Shown: positions 22,502 to 31,685 of the stretch, piece after piece | Numbering within the stretch: position 1 is the first letter of the stretch | Layout: every line of letters begins with the position of its first letter | Translations under genes and position numbers: made by a program | Notes under the pieces: model-generated | Seen by the model: only the letters and a program-made list of their open reading frames with translations | The model's database searches: none | What the model was told of the DNA's origin: nothing | Assembly: GCA_026713305.1 (NCBI GenBank) | Contig: JAPOOS010000210.1 | Location: 1 to 44,363 of the forward strand | From: Paracoccaceae bacterium | Lineage (GTDB): Bacteria > Pseudomonadota > Alphaproteobacteria > Rhodobacterales > Rhodobacteraceae | Direction: 5' to 3' | Length of the DNA: 44,363 nt

Positions 22502-23923
22502 CTATGTGTCGTCTTCACCGCCGGCCTCCGGCAGGCGGCAGGTGATCAGCAGGGGAATCTCGCTGGCGGCACGAAACAGCTCGTCGCCGGTCATGGGAAT
22601 GCCAAAGCCGCCTTCGCCGAGCGCAATGTCGTGCGTGCGCAGAAACCTGCGGATGGCATCGGCGTTCGTTGCAGCTTCCATCCCCTGCGGAAGCTTGCTG
22701 CCAGCTGCACTGCGCGGCAGCAGCATTCCGGCCACGTTCCCGAACCTGTCGACGATTGGGCCGCCTGCGTCGCCCTCCATTGCGTCGACTTCAAGCAGGA
22801 ACGACAGCGTTTCGTCGCCTTCCAACTGTGATGAACTTGCCCGGCCGACCGAGACGGTTGGCTGGCCGAGCAGGCCGCCGTGGGAAAAGCCGCCCAGCCA
22901 AACCTGTGCGTTGGCCGGCGGTGCACGGTTGGAAATCCTGGCGGAACGGAACGGGTAGAGACGTTGCCGAGGGGCAAGCAAAGCCAGATCGGCGGCGGTG
23001 TCCAGTGCAAGGACGCTCACTTCGTACCGGTTGTCAATGCGCAGGCTGCTGCATCCGGAAGCCAAGTTTGCGCTGGTAACGGCAGTACCCTGATCGTCGA
23101 CGAAGAATCCGGAAAACGACCGGTCCGGCTTTGCCGGAAAGAAGTGCTGCTGCAGCTTGGTGGCGGGAGAGGCGTCTGCGGGTTTGGAAAACTGGCTGCC
23201 TTCCTCCGGCTGGATCGCCGTGACGCTGCGCGCCAGGGCTCGGAAGAAATTCATGCCTTCGGGACCCTGTGCGAGCGGCCGCTGGACGAGCATTCCCCAA
23301 ATCCGGCCAAACCGGTATCTTGCTCTCGCATAGGTGAACTTTCCGTCAGCCCCGTTGGAAAACGAAAACTCCGTTGGCGAAAGCATGCCCTGCCGCGCAT
23401 CGGCTTTGAACTCTGCCAGCAGGCTTTGATAGAGCGCACCGAAATCCTCCTGGTCGCCCTCCAGAGACATCAGCGCAATCCGAATGCCGGATTGGTTGAT
23501 CGAACGGAAGGTCACGAACGGGCCCATTGCGCCGTCGAATGCAACCAGGGCGGTCGGAATCAGCGCATGGAGTCCGGCAATTCGGTGATGGAAGCCGGCG
23601 ATGCCGCTCGACCCGTACCTTTGGTTGAAATCGTCCAGAAGAACATTGAGCTGCGCTTCCGTAAGCTCGTCGGCCGGTGGCTCGCCGATGGATGTCAGGT
23701 AGGACCTGATGCCATTCCTGGTTTGGCTGCCGGTGACGCCGTCTATGTCGCCTGTGTAGTAGCCATCGACGCTCAGGGCCAGTTGAATGGACGCAAGTTG
23801 CGAGGGCGTGTAGATCGACCAATCCAGAGCATCTGCCTGCTCGTTGCCGGCTGTTGAATTCTGGGCGCTGGCCGGTGCGCCGCAGAGGATTGGCACTATG
23901 AACGCCAGTAGAGCGATCTGCAT
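22502..23923 (-). CDS. Secreted peptidoglycan-binding-domain / trypsin-like protein (probable pseudoprotease)
   Basis: Signal peptide 'MQIALLAFIVPILCGAPASAQ', PG_binding_1-like 'IQLALSVDGYYTGDIDGVTGSQTRNGIRSYL', chymotrypsin-fold C-terminus with 'TSANLASGC', 'DTAADLALLA', 'EGDAGGPIVDRFGNVAGML'. Confidence 0.85.
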   Translation of the reverse strand: MQIALLAFIVPILCGAPASAQNSTAGNEQADALDWSIYTPSQLASIQLALSVDGYYTGDIDGVTGSQTRNGIRSYLTSIGEPPADELTEAQLNVLLDDFNQRYGSSGIAGFHHRIAGLHALIPTALVAFDGAMGPFVTFRSINQSGIRIALMSLEGDQEDFGALYQSLLAEFKADARQGMLSPTEFSFSNGADGKFTYARARYRFGRIWGMLVQRPLAQGPEGMNFFRALARSVTAIQPEEGSQFSKPADASPATKLQQHFFPAKPDRSFSGFFVDDQGTAVTSANLASGCSSLRIDNRYEVSVLALDTAADLALLAPRQRLYPFRSARISNRAPPANAQVWLGGFSHGGLLGQPTVSVGRASSSQLEGDETLSFLLEVDAMEGDAGGPIVDRFGNVAGMLLPRSAAGSKLPQGMEAATNADAIRRFLRTHDIALGEGGFGIPMTGDELFRAASEIPLLITCRLPEAGGEDDT

Positions 23924-24784
23924 CAATCGATTGCTCACGGCACCTACCTGTACTTGAACTGAAACTGTTCGGTCTGTTGACGCATCATTGCTTGGAGCAA
24001 CGCAAGACCGTTGCCCCCGAGCCTCGTCCTGCGACACTGCAATGGCGAAAGGCGGGAAACCGCGCTGAAACGCAGTGCAGGTTCAGGAGCAATGGACCTG
24101 ATCCCGTATATTTGCAGTACGCGGCAACTTCAACAACTGCAGCCGGCATTGACGGCGCAAGGTCCTGAGCGCTCCAGTTGCCTTGCCTCGAAACCAGCAC
24201 GCATTTCCCAATCTCCAGCAATCGAGATCAAGCAAGGAAACGCGCAACGGGAGGAATTTCGGCCGGTCGGCGCGATTCCGCGAATCCCGAGCTTGCAGAC
24301 ATGCGCCTGTTCAATTGCGAACTTGACAGCGTGCCAGCGTGCGGTTCGAGTTTTCCTGCCGCATTGTGGGGTCGCGCGTTCAATGACAACAGCCTTCGAC
24401 CGCGCCAGGGATCACATTCCGGTGGGTTCAGATGCGTGCCCAAAGGCGATGGCGCCAGAGTCCGGCTCGACCGGTCCGGACACGGCGGCAAACGATGCAA
24501 ATGCATTTGGCAACTGCGTTTGGATTGCGGGTCGAGCGGCTGGGCGGAGAGTATCAGCTTGTGCTTGTCGTTTGGGCTACATAATGCTCAGTTCCTGCGC
24601 ACTCCGTTTGACAGCGCGCAGCACGTCCCGCGTCCATCGCTTCGATCTGGATGGTGGGGCGATTCGTCGAACTAATCACGTCGCAGTTCGCATGTTCCCA
24701 ACAATGGTTCACTGACTTGCAATGATCGCTGACTTCACAAGGAGCTGACGAACCGCCGTGCGGGAATTTGTGGACACGAAGCAT

Positions 24785-25732
<948 letters not shown>

Positions 25733-25799: not shown

Positions 25800-27926
25800 A
25801 TGCAACACCTATTGCTTGAAGTGCGCTGTGAGGAAATTCCCGCCACTCTCCAGGAAAGCGGGGCTCGCCGGCTGGCGGACGCCGTCGGATCCGAGCTGGC
25901 GGAGGCAGGGCTGGCAGCCACTGCGGTTTCATCATATTCGACGCCGCGGAGGCTGGTTGCCGTCCTGTCGGGCATGCCGCAGGCATCGGCACCCGTGACA
26001 CATGAGAGGCGAGGACCAAGGGTCGGTGCGCCGCAGCGGGCGATTGCCGGCTTCCTGCGCTCGGCGGGAGCCGATGCCGGCCAGCTTGAGGTGCGCAGCT
26101 CCAGGAAGGGCGAGTACTACTTCGCGGTCACGGTCACACCCGGTCGGCGTTTGGAAGATGTGGCGAGCGAACGGGTTCGCGGAGCAATTGAAGGCCTTGT
26201 CTGGCCGAAATCGATGCGTTGGGGTTCCGGAAACTTCCGCTGGGTTCGGCCCATCCGGTCGTTGCTCTGCATACTGTTCGACGACGAGGGCAATTGTCGA
26301 AACGTTGAATTCGAGGTTGCTGGAATCCAGTCCGGGAACACGACCCGCGGACACCGCTTTCTGTCACCTGGCGACTTCCCGGTCAGATCGTTCGCCGAAT
26401 ACGAAGCCAAGTTGCGGGATGCATGGGTAATGCTCAGCGCCACCGAACGCCGCGATCGAATCAGGGCGGTGGCCGAGAGTTTTGCGCGTGAGCGGCGGCT
26501 TGTTCTTTGGCAGGACGAGGAATTGCTCAAGGAAATCGCTGGGTTGGTGGAGTGGCCAAACCCCATTCTGGGCCGGGTGCCCGCTAGGTACCGGTCGTTG
26601 CCTAGGGAAATTCTGCGAACCGCAATTCGCAGGCACCAGAAGTACCTTTCGCTTTGCAGGTGCGATGGCGATCAGGTTACGCACTTCGTCACCGTTGCAA
26701 ACAACAAGGGAAGCGTCAACGACGACGCGATCCGAAAGGGCAACACACGCGTGCTTTGTGCGCGGCTGGAGGATGCCGAGTTCCACTATGCCGCTGACAT
26801 GCAGTTCCTGCGCCATGCCGGGCTGGATTCCTTCAACCGGAAACTCGAGGATGTCAGCTATCACGCCTCGCTGGGGTCGCAGTGGCAAAGAGTCGAACGC
26901 ATTGCCGGGCTGGCTCGCGCCATCGCCGAACATCTGAATGCGGATGTCGACGTCGTTTCGCAGGCAGCGCGCCATTGCAAGGCCGACCTGGCGTCGCAGG
27001 TCATCGACGAGTTTCCCGAACTCCAGGGTGTCATGGGAAGCCACTACGCCAAGGCCGACGGCTTGGATGCCAACGTGTGCAAGGCAATCGAACAGCATTA
27101 TCGCCCGGTCGGCGACGGCTCGGAACTCCCCTCGGACACGGAAGCCAGCTGTGTGGCGCTGGCGGACAGAATCAACCATCTATGCGGATTCGCGCTCGCC
27201 GGCGAAAGGACAACAGGGTCCAAGGATCCACACGCGTTGCGCCGCGCTGCACTGGCTGCAATCAGAATTGTCCTCGAGAACGAGTATGTGTTGCCGTTGG
27301 ACAGGATTGTGCAGCACGGCCTGGCAAACTACCTTGACGACCAGGAGCCCGGCGACGGCGGGAAGTTTGTCGACAGGCTGTCGGCCGAGCGGCAGGTCAT
27401 GGAGTTCGTGATGGGAAGGTTTGTTGTGCTGTTGCGCCGGCAGGGCATTGAAAGGCAGTACATCGACGCCTGCATGAGCAGTTCGAAGCGTGCGAATCTT
27501 CTCCATCTCAGGCAACATGTGGAATGTTTGCGAAAGGTCGCAAGCGACTGCGGCATTGACAATCTGGCCCAGCCGTCTCTGCGCGCCGGCTCGATCCTTC
27601 GCGCTGCCGGAATTGCGGTGCCGGCAAGAGCTCCTGCCATTGATCCGGAGCTGTTCGGGCATGAATCGGAACACCGGCTGTTTTCCAGGCTGCAACAGCT
27701 TGAAGGACTGGTTGCAAGCATGGACGAGCGCTTTACCGTGAGTGGGTGCGAACGAACGCTGCGCGCCATTCACGAAATGAACGCGCCGTTGGAAGCCTTC
27801 TTTTCGTCGGTGCTCGTGAACGACACCAACAAAGCGGTGCGGAAAAACCGACTTGGCTTGCTGGCGTGGCTGGAAGGCATGTGCATGCGAGTTGCGGATT
27901 TCTCGAGATTGCATGGCGGCGCCTGA
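25800..27926 (+). CDS. glyS: Glycyl-tRNA synthetase beta subunit
   Basis: 'LLLEVRCEEIPATL', 'WPKSMRWGSGNFRWVRPIRSLLCIL', 'VMGSHYA', C-terminal 'RLGLLAWLEGMCMRVADFSRL'. Confidence 0.98.
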   Translation: MQHLLLEVRCEEIPATLQESGARRLADAVGSELAEAGLAATAVSSYSTPRRLVAVLSGMPQASAPVTHERRGPRVGAPQRAIAGFLRSAGADAGQLEVRSSRKGEYYFAVTVTPGRRLEDVASERVRGAIEGLVWPKSMRWGSGNFRWVRPIRSLLCILFDDEGNCRNVEFEVAGIQSGNTTRGHRFLSPGDFPVRSFAEYEAKLRDAWVMLSATERRDRIRAVAESFARERRLVLWQDEELLKEIAGLVEWPNPILGRVPARYRSLPREILRTAIRRHQKYLSLCRCDGDQVTHFVTVANNKGSVNDDAIRKGNTRVLCARLEDAEFHYAADMQFLRHAGLDSFNRKLEDVSYHASLGSQWQRVERIAGLARAIAEHLNADVDVVSQAARHCKADLASQVIDEFPELQGVMGSHYAKADGLDANVCKAIEQHYRPVGDGSELPSDTEASCVALADRINHLCGFALAGERTTGSKDPHALRRAALAAIRIVLENEYVLPLDRIVQHGLANYLDDQEPGDGGKFVDRLSAERQVMEFVMGRFVVLLRRQGIERQYIDACMSSSKRANLLHLRQHVECLRKVASDCGIDNLAQPSLRAGSILRAAGIAVPARAPAIDPELFGHESEHRLFSRLQQLEGLVASMDERFTVSGCERTLRAIHEMNAPLEAFFSSVLVNDTNKAVRKNRLGLLAWLEGMCMRVADFSRLHGGA

Positions 27927-30546
27927 ACGGCCCGTGGTCACCATGACAGGTCCGCCGATCGACAGCGTTCCGAGTTCCGCTGCTTCGGCAGCCGAGGCGG
28001 GAAGAATGGATACAAGTGGCAAAATGGGACCTATCGCAACAAGCTGTGCTCAGGTGGTTGCCGCATCCGAACGGCCAACGGCCCGGAACTTCGGAGAGAG
28101 AGCCGCCCGGATAGGCCGGCTCGTCGAACTCGGCATCAGGTGCCCGCGAACAGTGGCAGTTTCTATCGATGCTGTCGGCGCCGAACATGGCGGCGCAGCG
28201 ATGGATGTGTCGCCCGTGCTGGATCAATTCGAACCGCGACCGCTGCTTTCAGTCAGATCAAGTCCCCGCTTCAGCCGATGTGGCGGCGTTGGCGTGTTTC
28301 TTTGGGTCGGGTTGAACAACGCCGCATTGCCGATGTTGGCGGAGCGAATTGGCAGGAAACGCGCCCTGCACGCGTACAAGAGGCACATCCGCAACTTTGC
28401 GTATCGGGTGCACGAAGTCGAAATCGACAGTCCGAGCCGCCAGCCCGGTCAAAGCACGCGGGAGTGCGAGGTCGAAGTCGGCCGCTTGCTGGAATCCTTC
28501 AGAAGGAAGGTTGGCACGGAGTTTCCCCAGAGTCCAAGCGAACAGCTGCGGGCAGCAGTGCGGACAATGGCCAAGGGATGGAACAAACCGTCCGCCCGGC
28601 TGCTGCGCACGGCCAGGGGATTCTCCGGGGAGACCGGCCTCGGTCTGGTTGTGCAGGAAATGGTTCTATGCCGGTCATCCCGGGGAATGCGGGTTTGGTC
28701 AAGCCAGGCAATCAATGTCGAGACCGGCAGGAAGGACTTCCGTGTTGGAATTGGCGAGCAGGCGAATTCCGCCGACATTGCCACTGCCGATTCCGAAGTC
28801 GCTCTAAGCCGAGGGTGGGAAGACGAACTCAGGCGCATCCACGACAAGCTGCGGCGCAGCCTCGCGGACGAAATTCAGCTCCGGTTTGCCGATGACGGGA
28901 CCGACGTCTTCGTTCTCGAGTACGGTGTTCTTCAAAAGAGCGTCGCCGCGGAAGTTCGCGTCGCAGTTGAACTTGTGCAAGCCGGGGTGATCGACAAGCA
29001 GGACGCACTTCTCAGAATCGATCCCGAAAATTTGGCAAGCCTTCTGCATCCGCAGGTAAGCCCGGAAGCGAACAACCGGGTAATCGCCAAGGGAATCGCC
29101 GCAAGTCCCGGTGCAGCGTCCGGAGCGATAGTGTTTTCCTCCTCGGCCGCAGATGTCAGGGCGGCGCGGTCGCAGGGATGCATTCTTGTCCGAGCCGAGA
29201 CAGGCCCGGAAGACATCAGGGGCATGCACATTGCGCAGGGAGTGCTGACAGGACGCGGCGGAATGACAAGCCATGCCGCTGTAATAGCCAGGGGATTGGG
29301 CGTGCCCTGCGTCGCCGGCGCAACCAACATCGACTTTTGGCCGCAGAGCGGCGCGCTCGTCACCGACGAAGGCAACATCTTTCGAGAGGGCGACACCATC
29401 ACGATCGACGGAACCGCGGGTGTTGTGCTTGAGGGCGCCGCCCCCACATTGCCTCCCGACTATGGCCGGGCTGTCAGGCAGTTTCTTGACTGGGCCGACT
29501 GCTGCCGCGATCTCGGCATTCGCGCCAATGCCGACACGCTCGACGAGGTCAAGATAGCGCTGCGGTTCGGAGCCGAAGGCGTCGGTCTGTGCAGAACCGA
29601 GCATATGTTCTTCGACGAGTCACGGTTGACGGTCATGCGCGAGATGATTTTCGCGTCAACGCCGGCCGAACGCCGCCAGTCACTTGAGAAACTGCTGCCA
29701 ATGCAGCGCGGCGACTTTCTTCAGCTGTTTCAAAGTCTGCCGGGCAAGCCGGTTTGCATTCGACTTCTCGACCCGCCGCTGCACGAGTTTCTCCCCCACG
29801 ATCAGGATGAGCTGGCCGATCTCGCCGAAGCGATCGGCCTGTCGCTCGAACAGCTGACGGCCCGAGCGGAAGAGCTGAAGGAGTTCAACCCAATGCTTGG
29901 ACTGCGCGGCGTGAGGCTGGGCATATCGGTTCCGGAGATCTACGAGATGCAGGCGAGAGCGATTTTCGAGGCCGCGGCCGAGGCAACTGCGCGGGGAATT
30001 TCGGTGTCGCCGGAGATCATGGTTCCGCTGGTAACCGCCAACCGCGAGGTTGTGCTGGTCAAGAGGCAGATCGATCAGGTGGCCGAAGAAGTGCGTGCCT
30101 CGACCGGCGTCGACTTTGAATTCGAACTCGGCGTGATGGTTGAGACGCCGAGAGCGGCGTTGAGGGCCGGCGAACTTGCAGCCAACGCCACGTTTCTGAG
30201 TTTCGGCACGAACGATCTGACGCAGCTTACCTACGGAATAAGCCGTGACGATTCCGCCCGCATTGTCGACGAATATGTCCGTCTCGGCGTATTTCCCGCA
30301 GATCCTTTCAGCAGAATCGATCGCGAAGGCGTCGGGGAACTGCTCCAACTGGCGGTGTCGCGAGGGATGGACACCCGTCCTGATCTCCTGCTTTCGCTTT
30401 GCGGAGAACATGCTGCGAGCGCCGACACGATTGAATTCAGCAGGCAGGCAAAGTTCTCGTATGTCTCCTGCTCTCCGTTTCGAGTCCCGATCGCCCGGCT
30501 GGCGGCCGCCCAGGCCGCAATTCGGCAGAGGCGGGCGGCGGGCTGA
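27913..30546 (+). CDS. ppdK: Pyruvate phosphate dikinase-like protein with divergent N-terminal nucleotide-binding domain
   Basis: 'GGMTSHAAVIARGLGVPCVAG' (phospho-His), 'FGAEGVGLCRTEHMFF', 'IRLLDPPLHEFLPH', 'SFGTNDLTQLTYG', 'SLCGEHAA' (catalytic Cys). glyQ-glyS-ppdK order. Start uncertain (27913 overlaps the glyS end). Confidence 0.85.
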   Translation: MAAPERPVVTMTGPPIDSVPSSAASAAEAGRMDTSGKMGPIATSCAQVVAASERPTARNFGERAARIGRLVELGIRCPRTVAVSIDAVGAEHGGAAMDVSPVLDQFEPRPLLSVRSSPRFSRCGGVGVFLWVGLNNAALPMLAERIGRKRALHAYKRHIRNFAYRVHEVEIDSPSRQPGQSTRECEVEVGRLLESFRRKVGTEFPQSPSEQLRAAVRTMAKGWNKPSARLLRTARGFSGETGLGLVVQEMVLCRSSRGMRVWSSQAINVETGRKDFRVGIGEQANSADIATADSEVALSRGWEDELRRIHDKLRRSLADEIQLRFADDGTDVFVLEYGVLQKSVAAEVRVAVELVQAGVIDKQDALLRIDPENLASLLHPQVSPEANNRVIAKGIAASPGAASGAIVFSSSAADVRAARSQGCILVRAETGPEDIRGMHIAQGVLTGRGGMTSHAAVIARGLGVPCVAGATNIDFWPQSGALVTDEGNIFREGDTITIDGTAGVVLEGAAPTLPPDYGRAVRQFLDWADCCRDLGIRANADTLDEVKIALRFGAEGVGLCRTEHMFFDESRLTVMREMIFASTPAERRQSLEKLLPMQRGDFLQLFQSLPGKPVCIRLLDPPLHEFLPHDQDELADLAEAIGLSLEQLTARAEELKEFNPMLGLRGVRLGISVPEIYEMQARAIFEAAAEATARGISVSPEIMVPLVTANREVVLVKRQIDQVAEEVRASTGVDFEFELGVMVETPRAALRAGELAANATFLSFGTNDLTQLTYGISRDDSARIVDEYVRLGVFPADPFSRIDREGVGELLQLAVSRGMDTRPDLLLSLCGEHAASADTIEFSRQAKFSYVSCSPFRVPIARLAAAQAAIRQRRAAG

Positions 30547-30770: not shown

Positions 30771-31685
30771 ATGCATATGGCGCAATTGCGTCATCCGATA
30801 CGCTGGCATCTGCCATTGAGATTTGCGGTGGCGCCGTTTGTGGCCGGAACAATAGTGGTGCTTCTATTGCACCTCGGCACAACAGCTTCAGCACAGCAAA
30901 GCCTCCCAGCGCCTGACGATCGGACAGCCGGCGCAGGCCTCGGTGCCCCTGTCATGGGGGAATCCGAATTGGAGCTAGCCGCTCGGCAGTCACTGGGTTG
31001 GACTGCCGGCGAGGTCCACGACGAGGTGGGGAAGGAGCACGCGCCTGTCCTCGTCGATGGAATTGTCCCCGCGCTTCGCGGCCCGACGGGAGCCGCGGCT
31101 ACAGGAAATCTGAAGGTCGTTCTTCGGCCCACGACGACAGGTTCAAAGGCGACCTCCTCACGCAATTCCGTTGCGATGATGGCCAAGTCGCCTTCAATTA
31201 AGCGAAGGGATCGGCGGAGCGTCAAGTTGGGCTTGGTTCCAGTGATGCGAACAATTCCCCGGAAACCGGCGTTTGCGCCCAATGGCCTTGCCGACCGAGA
31301 GGAAAGGGCATGCCTTGCGCAGGCCGTTTACTTCGAAGCACGTGGCGAACCAAGGGAAGGAAGGATCGCAGTTGCACAGGTCATACTGAATCGCGTGCGA
31401 TCAAAGCGATTTCCGAACACAATCTGCGGAGTTGTCTTCGAGGGAATGAATCAGCAGCACAAGTGCCAGTTCAGCTACGCCTGCGACGGCGCGCCGGAGT
31501 TGATAGCCAACGAAGACCTGTACAGTCAAATCGCCAAACTGATGGATCGAGTGGTGCGAGGCGAAGTGACCAGTCTGGTCGGGGACGCTGAATTCTATCA
31601 CAACACGCAGGTCAGGCCGGAATGGGCCAAGGAACTGGCCTTGTCCCGGAAGATCGGTCGGCACTACTTCTACACTTCCAAGTAG
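30771..31685 (+). CDS. Cell wall hydrolase, SleB family (PF07486)
   Basis: N-terminal TM/signal segment and 'ERACLAQAVYFEARGEPREGRIAVAQVILNRVRSKRFPNTICGVVFEG...CQFSYACDG'. Confidence 0.93.
   Translation: MHMAQLRHPIRWHLPLRFAVAPFVAGTIVVLLLHLGTTASAQQSLPAPDDRTAGAGLGAPVMGESELELAARQSLGWTAGEVHDEVGKEHAPVLVDGIVPALRGPTGAAATGNLKVVLRPTTTGSKATSSRNSVAMMAKSPSIKRRDRRSVKLGLVPVMRTIPRKPAFAPNGLADREERACLAQAVYFEARGEPREGRIAVAQVILNRVRSKRFPNTICGVVFEGMNQQHKCQFSYACDGAPELIANEDLYSQIAKLMDRVVRGEVTSLVGDAEFYHNTQVRPEWAKELALSRKIGRHYFYTSK

Follow-up and report, generated by a model that had tools for sequence, protein, structure and literature searches.

Genomes of the Rhodobacteraceae, a bacterial family that is common in the ocean and includes the marine roseobacters, are regularly annotated with pyruvate phosphate dikinase (PPDK). 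Whether the protein behind this annotation can still carry out the PPDK reaction is the question raised by one open reading frame in the window, by which we mean the whole 44,363-nucleotide stretch of Paracoccaceae contig JAPOOS010000210.1 that was analyzed. A sequence-only reading of this DNA had described a PPDK-like protein with an eroded nucleotide-binding domain and had offered three explanations: a PEP-dependent relay with another phosphoryl partner, a protein relying on a different nucleotide, or an early-stage degenerate gene. Loss of the ATP site is not special to the window gene but extends across the Rhodobacteraceae, with the window's clade as the most diverged branch. Because the ATP-binding residues have been lost while the phosphohistidine and PEP sites have been kept, the sequences suggest that the Rhodobacteraceae "PPDK," here called PpdKL, probably does another job and is thus misnamed in genomes and metabolic models.

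The PPDK-like gene and its ATP site

The frame encodes 877 amino acids with zero internal stops and a TGA stop codon, in line with the roughly 880 open codons described earlier, and is a full-length PPDK homologue (Table 1). The start originally assigned to it holds up less well. Because ATG 27913 overlaps the glyS stop codon (27926), 62 codons upstream of the K22 position, and same-genus relatives begin only 19 codons ahead of that position, the real start is likelier to be ATG 28024 or 28006. An ORF of 511 amino acids for a trypsin-like peptidase (PF13365) lies ahead of glyQ on the minus strand (22502-24037).

Table 1. Features of the PpdKL locus in window coordinates (Cs, Clostridium symbiosum PPDK)
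Feature	Position	Strand	Evidence or remark
PPDK-like protein (PpdKL)	27913..30546	+	Open frame; likelier start 28024 or 28006
N-domain (ATP-grasp fold), K22 to R337 equivalents	28099..28926	+	Residue mapping, AF2; ATP-site residues replaced
Central swiveling phospho-His domain, residues 389-503, intact	29077..29421	+	PF00391, E=5.1e-23; resembles 2fm4
Catalytic histidine codon, H454 (Cs H455), in GGMTSHAA	29272..29274	+	Residue mapping
C-terminal PEP/pyruvate domain, residues 521-868	29473..30516	+	PF02896, E=2.6e-70; R561/R617/E744/N767/D768/C830 intact
glyQ, glycyl-tRNA synthetase alpha, upstream	24758..25732	+	PF02091, E=3.6e-132; conserved neighbor by synteny
glyS, glycyl-tRNA synthetase beta, directly upstream	25800..27926	+	PF02092, E=8.8e-161; conserved
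Cell-wall hydrolase (Hydrolase_2), downstream	30771..31685	+	PF07486; conserved neighbor, no partner role claimed

Pfam recognizes PEP-utilizers and PEP-utilizers_C alone in the window protein, and PPDK_N (PF01326) has no match there even at an E value of ≤1; weak PF01326 matches occur in 10 of 30 Rhodobacteraceae N-domains, the best at 3.3e-6. Against the PPDK equivalog TIGR01828, the window protein scores 761.6 bits, under the cut-off of 843.45, compared with 854 for the R. pomeroyi member (just over the cut-off) and 1382 for Sinorhizobium meliloti. A Phmmer alignment to the C. symbiosum PPDK, the reference for residue mapping, extends from about residue 109 through to the end. For both the window protein and its R. 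pomeroyi counterpart, AF2 (mean pLDDT, 82) predicts the full-length PPDK fold, including the ATP-grasp fold, and the window model is confident across most of the N-domain region (28099..28926).

K22, D321, E323, Q335, and R337 are residues of the PPDK ATP-grasp site, and PDB titles name the mutants K22A (1JDE) and R337A (2DIK); mutants of this site were reportedly studied by Ye et al. in 2001. The three residues previously named as lost are all replaced when mapped on the C. symbiosum enzyme (K22 by R63, E323 by R324, and Q335 by E336), and D321 (Q322), E279 (A287), and R337 (G338) are additional losses. G94 has become S117, M102/M103 have become G125/V126, and the D168/D170 loop is deleted. 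The N-domain retains R92 (R115), G101 (G124), and Q240 (Q248), and from the ATP/Mg/phosphate-loop set (K22, GMM 101-103, E279, D321, E323, Q335, and R337), the window protein keeps G101 alone. At the docking positions R219 and E271, it carries S and G. On the His/PEP side, T453/H455 (T452/H454), R561, R617, E745, N768, D769, and C831 are retained. The residue map, Pfam, and TIGR01828 thus agree with the original description of intact His and PEP domains beside an eroded nucleotide domain.

Distribution and descent

A contig scan with the single window N-domain gave no matches, and an alignment-based N-domain model recovered the Rhodobacteraceae members. This model matches all 296 near-complete Rhodobacteraceae genomes, covering 114/114 genera, with one match per genome in all but four. 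Relatives 45 to 67% identical are present in almost all genomes of the window's family, and named members include Ruegeria, Leisingera, Phaeobacter, Roseovarius, and Sulfitobacter. When 112 other alphaproteobacterial families were sampled across the class with one genome apiece, 87 matched the family model, all at 212 bits or less; the window scores 403 bits and G061 scores 540. PPDKs of nine other alphaproteobacterial families had a canonical ATP site in the first mapping, and a complete one is present in all principal full-length copies checked in other families and in the S. meliloti ppdK. The genome bin of the window (3.35 Mb) holds one PpdKL gene; its other match, on a separate contig, is PtsP (GAF plus enzyme I), and the search for a second, canonical ppdK suggested by the sequence-only reading found none in this genome.

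The ppdK or PpdKL gene adjoins glyS in 94 of 95 loci, and a Hydrolase_2 gene is close to it in 89/95. Since the glyS neighborhood is common to canonical and rewritten lineages, PpdKL is a vertical descendant (ortholog) of the alphaproteobacterial ppdK that changed early in the Rhodobacteraceae. We built a tree from the C-terminal half only, leaving out the columns of the ATP-site trait itself, and obtained a ladder from canonical sequences through intermediates to the crown. A chimera or horizontal import was ruled out by this tree and by the glyQ-glyS synteny shared with the canonical ppdK of other families. The basal genera G012, G168, G286, and G199 stand in between: they still have K22, E279, and E323 but show changes at G94, D321, and Q335 and in the GMM loop. 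On this tree, ATP-site loss is stepwise.

The regulator PDRP (DUF299) follows the same order. Of the 9 outgroup genomes in the first mapping of canonical PPDKs, 8 have it; of 70 Rhodobacteraceae genomes tested, it occurs in 7, all of them basal, and is absent from the other 63, among them the window's genome and every crown genome tested. This distribution calls for one loss before the crown and one in an odd basal genome, G025. The PpdKL of G025 (C41:8500-11800) is itself a very diverged basal member, with a C-half branch of 0.73 changes per column. A review describes PDRP as found in every bacterium that has PPDK (PMC8100219); the Rhodobacteraceae would be an exception to this rule, as is expected if they have no true PPDK. 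The ordered series of canonical, intermediate, rewritten, and regulator-lost forms would then document a central-metabolism enzyme turned into something else.

Residue replacement, selection, and the docking face

The His/PEP-site residues are kept in all Rhodobacteraceae members, with a single R617H among 116 crown sequences. In the crown N-domain, R stands at K22 almost without exception, S at G94, G at M102, and D at Q335; the usual residues at D321, R337, and E279 are Q, V, and R, and the D168/D170 loop has been deleted. Invariant residues in the cleft of this rewritten N-domain are R92, S94, G102, and Q240, and E323 is retained in most members. Canonical PPDKs have 137 invariant N-domain columns; the Rhodobacteraceae members retain 27 of them, have a different fixed residue or gap in 20, and vary in 90, compared with 107, 2, and 34 of 143 such columns in the C-domain. 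Identity within the Rhodobacteraceae is 41% for the N-domain versus 65% for the C-domain; canonical PPDKs have about 72% in both.

Selection was compared between the two domains, as had been proposed at the outset, using 44 close pairs, which gave a pooled omega (dN/dS) of 0.25 for the N-domain and 0.14 for the C-domain; these pairs were substituted for 1578 wider pairs because synonymous sites in the latter look saturated. A test for stronger conservation of the ATP-site columns than of the remaining N-domain within the Rhodobacteraceae gave a P value of 0.07, which is suggestive only. Given that the N-domain evolves faster but is constrained, and that new residues have become fixed, it is best read as rewritten and not decaying; its faster evolution could partly be relaxed constraint. 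Around E745 in the C-domain (Cs 742-746), the flanking residues have switched and are fixed family-wide (T742V, I744V, and L746T), and for this reason the PEP site may be subtly retuned.

The docking face of the N-domain has also changed. In a C. symbiosum PPDK carrying R219E/E271R/S262D (PDB 2R82), the His domain is positioned next to the PEP domain (PMC5371819). Two of these three docking positions are altered in PpdKL: R219 is S or T in 116/116 crown sequences, and E271, present in 24/24 canonical PPDKs, is R in most members (108/116 crown and 5/5 basal). The mutant was engineered on a canonical ATP site, whereas the PpdKL changes are natural, family-wide, and combined with ATP-site loss. 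Both AF2 models, from the window and from R. pomeroyi, have TMq values of 0.77 to 0.85 to PEP-facing PPDK structures and 0.61 to 0.68 to NBD-facing C. symbiosum structures, a preference that, in this comparison of two PpdKL models, is no more than supportive of a His domain located at the PEP site.

Candidate functions and metabolic relevance

We consider it probable that PpdKL is an ancient ex-PPDK whose histidine, charged by PEP, either donates its phosphate to an acceptor other than ATP or signals the ratio of PEP to pyruvate. Early in the Rhodobacteraceae, ppdK would have been converted to a non-PPDK. The sequences show the ATP, Mg, and phosphate-loop residues replaced within a predicted fold that was kept, the docking face altered against an essentially invariant His domain and PEP site, and PDRP lost later. 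PEP would phosphorylate the histidine reversibly (PEP + His <-> pyruvate + His-P), with the His domain resting at the PEP site and no further exchange of phosphate with ATP, AMP, or PPi. The phosphate would go instead to another acceptor, which could be a protein or else a ligand bound in the cleft of the rewritten N-domain; alternatively, the state of the histidine would itself be the readout.

Among the three original explanations, the PEP-dependent relay with another partner fits best, given the altered docking face, the lost PDRP, and 13C flux that is undetected or weak (see below). Use of a different nucleotide is unlikely, since the whole family has lost D321, Q335, and the GMM of the phosphate loop. 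The early-stage degenerate gene is ruled out by universal retention (296/296 genomes, almost always in single copy), invariant His/PEP residues, purifying selection on the N-domain, and newly fixed columns; a gene heading for loss would suit the faster N-domain and the strongly diverged window clade, but open frames kept in 114 genera and omega values of about 0.25 and 0.14 make it a most improbable description.

A pseudo-enzyme deserves more attention: PpdKL could be a structural or allosteric sensor of PEP and pyruvate, perhaps phosphorylated on its histidine, that regulates a partner by binding and passes phosphate to nothing. The conserved N-domain fold with newly fixed residues, the invariant His and PEP site, and the lack of an evident acceptor would all suit such a sensor, but essentially invariant catalytic His, T453, and PEP-site residues in 116 crown sequences go beyond what binding needs, and we regard it as unlikely. 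We give still less weight to a surviving PPDK-type dikinase that uses ATP through altered contacts or takes another nucleotide or phosphoryl donor. The full ATP-grasp fold is predicted, R92, G101, Q240, and mostly E323 are retained, and the R. pomeroyi member scores slightly above the TIGR01828 cut-off (854 versus 843); set against this are the loss of K22, GMM, D321, Q335, and mostly R337 and E279, together with the docking, PDRP, and flux evidence. Residual nucleotide binding may nonetheless persist through R92, Q240, and, in most members, E323. An alternative enzyme I that feeds PTS-Ntr (HPr/NPr) from PEP shares the His and PEP-binding domain families with PpdKL, but the window protein has no Pfam match to the HPr-binding PEP-utilisers_N and a PtsP carrying that domain is already in the window's genome, so that we find this role very hard to credit. 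A phosphoryl relay or regulator is favored over a dead scaffold.

Canonical PPDKs (EC 2.7.9.1; C. symbiosum, Flaveria, and S. meliloti) share with PpdKL the three-domain fold, the phospho-His domain, the PEP/pyruvate site, and, in most alphaproteobacteria examined, the glyQ-glyS neighborhood, whereas PpdKL is without the ATP/Mg/phosphate residues, R219/E271, and, in the crown, PDRP. Enzyme I and PtsP of the PTS likewise have a swiveling phosphohistidine charged by PEP with no nucleotide, but PpdKL has an ATP-grasp-derived N-domain in place of the HPr-binding one. The closest precedent is mycobacterial VadK (Rv1127c), a former PPDK in which one substrate half is disabled; it has no PPDK flux, retains the phospho-His, autophosphorylates, and interacts with methylcitrate-cycle enzymes (PMC13400623). 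VadK is the mirror image of PpdKL: it has the ATP-grasp and His domains without the PEP domain, whereas PpdKL has kept the PEP domain and lost the ATP site. As a fuller but tentative proposal, which we rate at a little under an even chance, PpdKL would be a Rhodobacteraceae-wide PEP-charged phosphohistidine protein with a rewritten N-domain and an undescribed acceptor, forming a second PEP-dependent phosphorelay beside PTS-Ntr as the counterpart of VadK. A few Rhodobacteraceae have, in addition to PpdKL, short VadK-like ORFs with ATP-grasp and His domains, no PEP domain, and a fully canonical ATP site (L123 in G182 and L124 in G197); such an ORF and PpdKL would complement each other as two halves.

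Flux through the PPDK reaction has been sought in this family. Dinoroseobacter shibae and Phaeobacter gallaeciensis have an annotated ppdK, yet 13C analysis detected no conversion of pyruvate to PEP in either (PMC2761930), and in Roseobacter denitrificans only weak pyruvate-to-PEP flux was found (PMC2749216); these data cover few carbon sources and few strains. A Phaeobacter PpdKL was seen directly, and from the 114/114 genera, the D. shibae and R. denitrificans genes would be of the same type. If the ATP half-reaction is gone, the missing flux despite an annotated ppdK is explained. PEPCK is present in 16/16 Rhodobacteraceae genomes tested and in the window's genome, which also has pyruvate kinase; the PPDK reaction can therefore be dispensed with. 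In every state simulated with iDsh827, the genome-scale model of D. shibae, PPDK operates in reverse (PMC3789786), and PPDK has been placed in proposed roseobacter routes of CO2 assimilation (discussed in PMC2761930); if the ATP half-reaction is gone family-wide, PPDK reactions should leave such models. We found no description of an ATP-site-less Rhodobacteraceae PPDK in the literature searched, mostly without subscription papers, and priority is not assured. As a universal, almost always single-copy protein, PpdKL is testable throughout the Rhodobacteraceae.

Second PPDK copies can be altered in either half. In an alphaproteobacterium outside the Rhodobacteraceae (G364:C1:1620200-1623400, L181), a second copy has K22Q and GMM changed to GLP alongside a canonical copy (L179); this erosion of the ATP site is independent and constitutes a parallel case. 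Another second copy (G423:C55:121000-124300, L182) has the opposite half altered, with a canonical ATP site and a PEP site carrying R561S and N768D.
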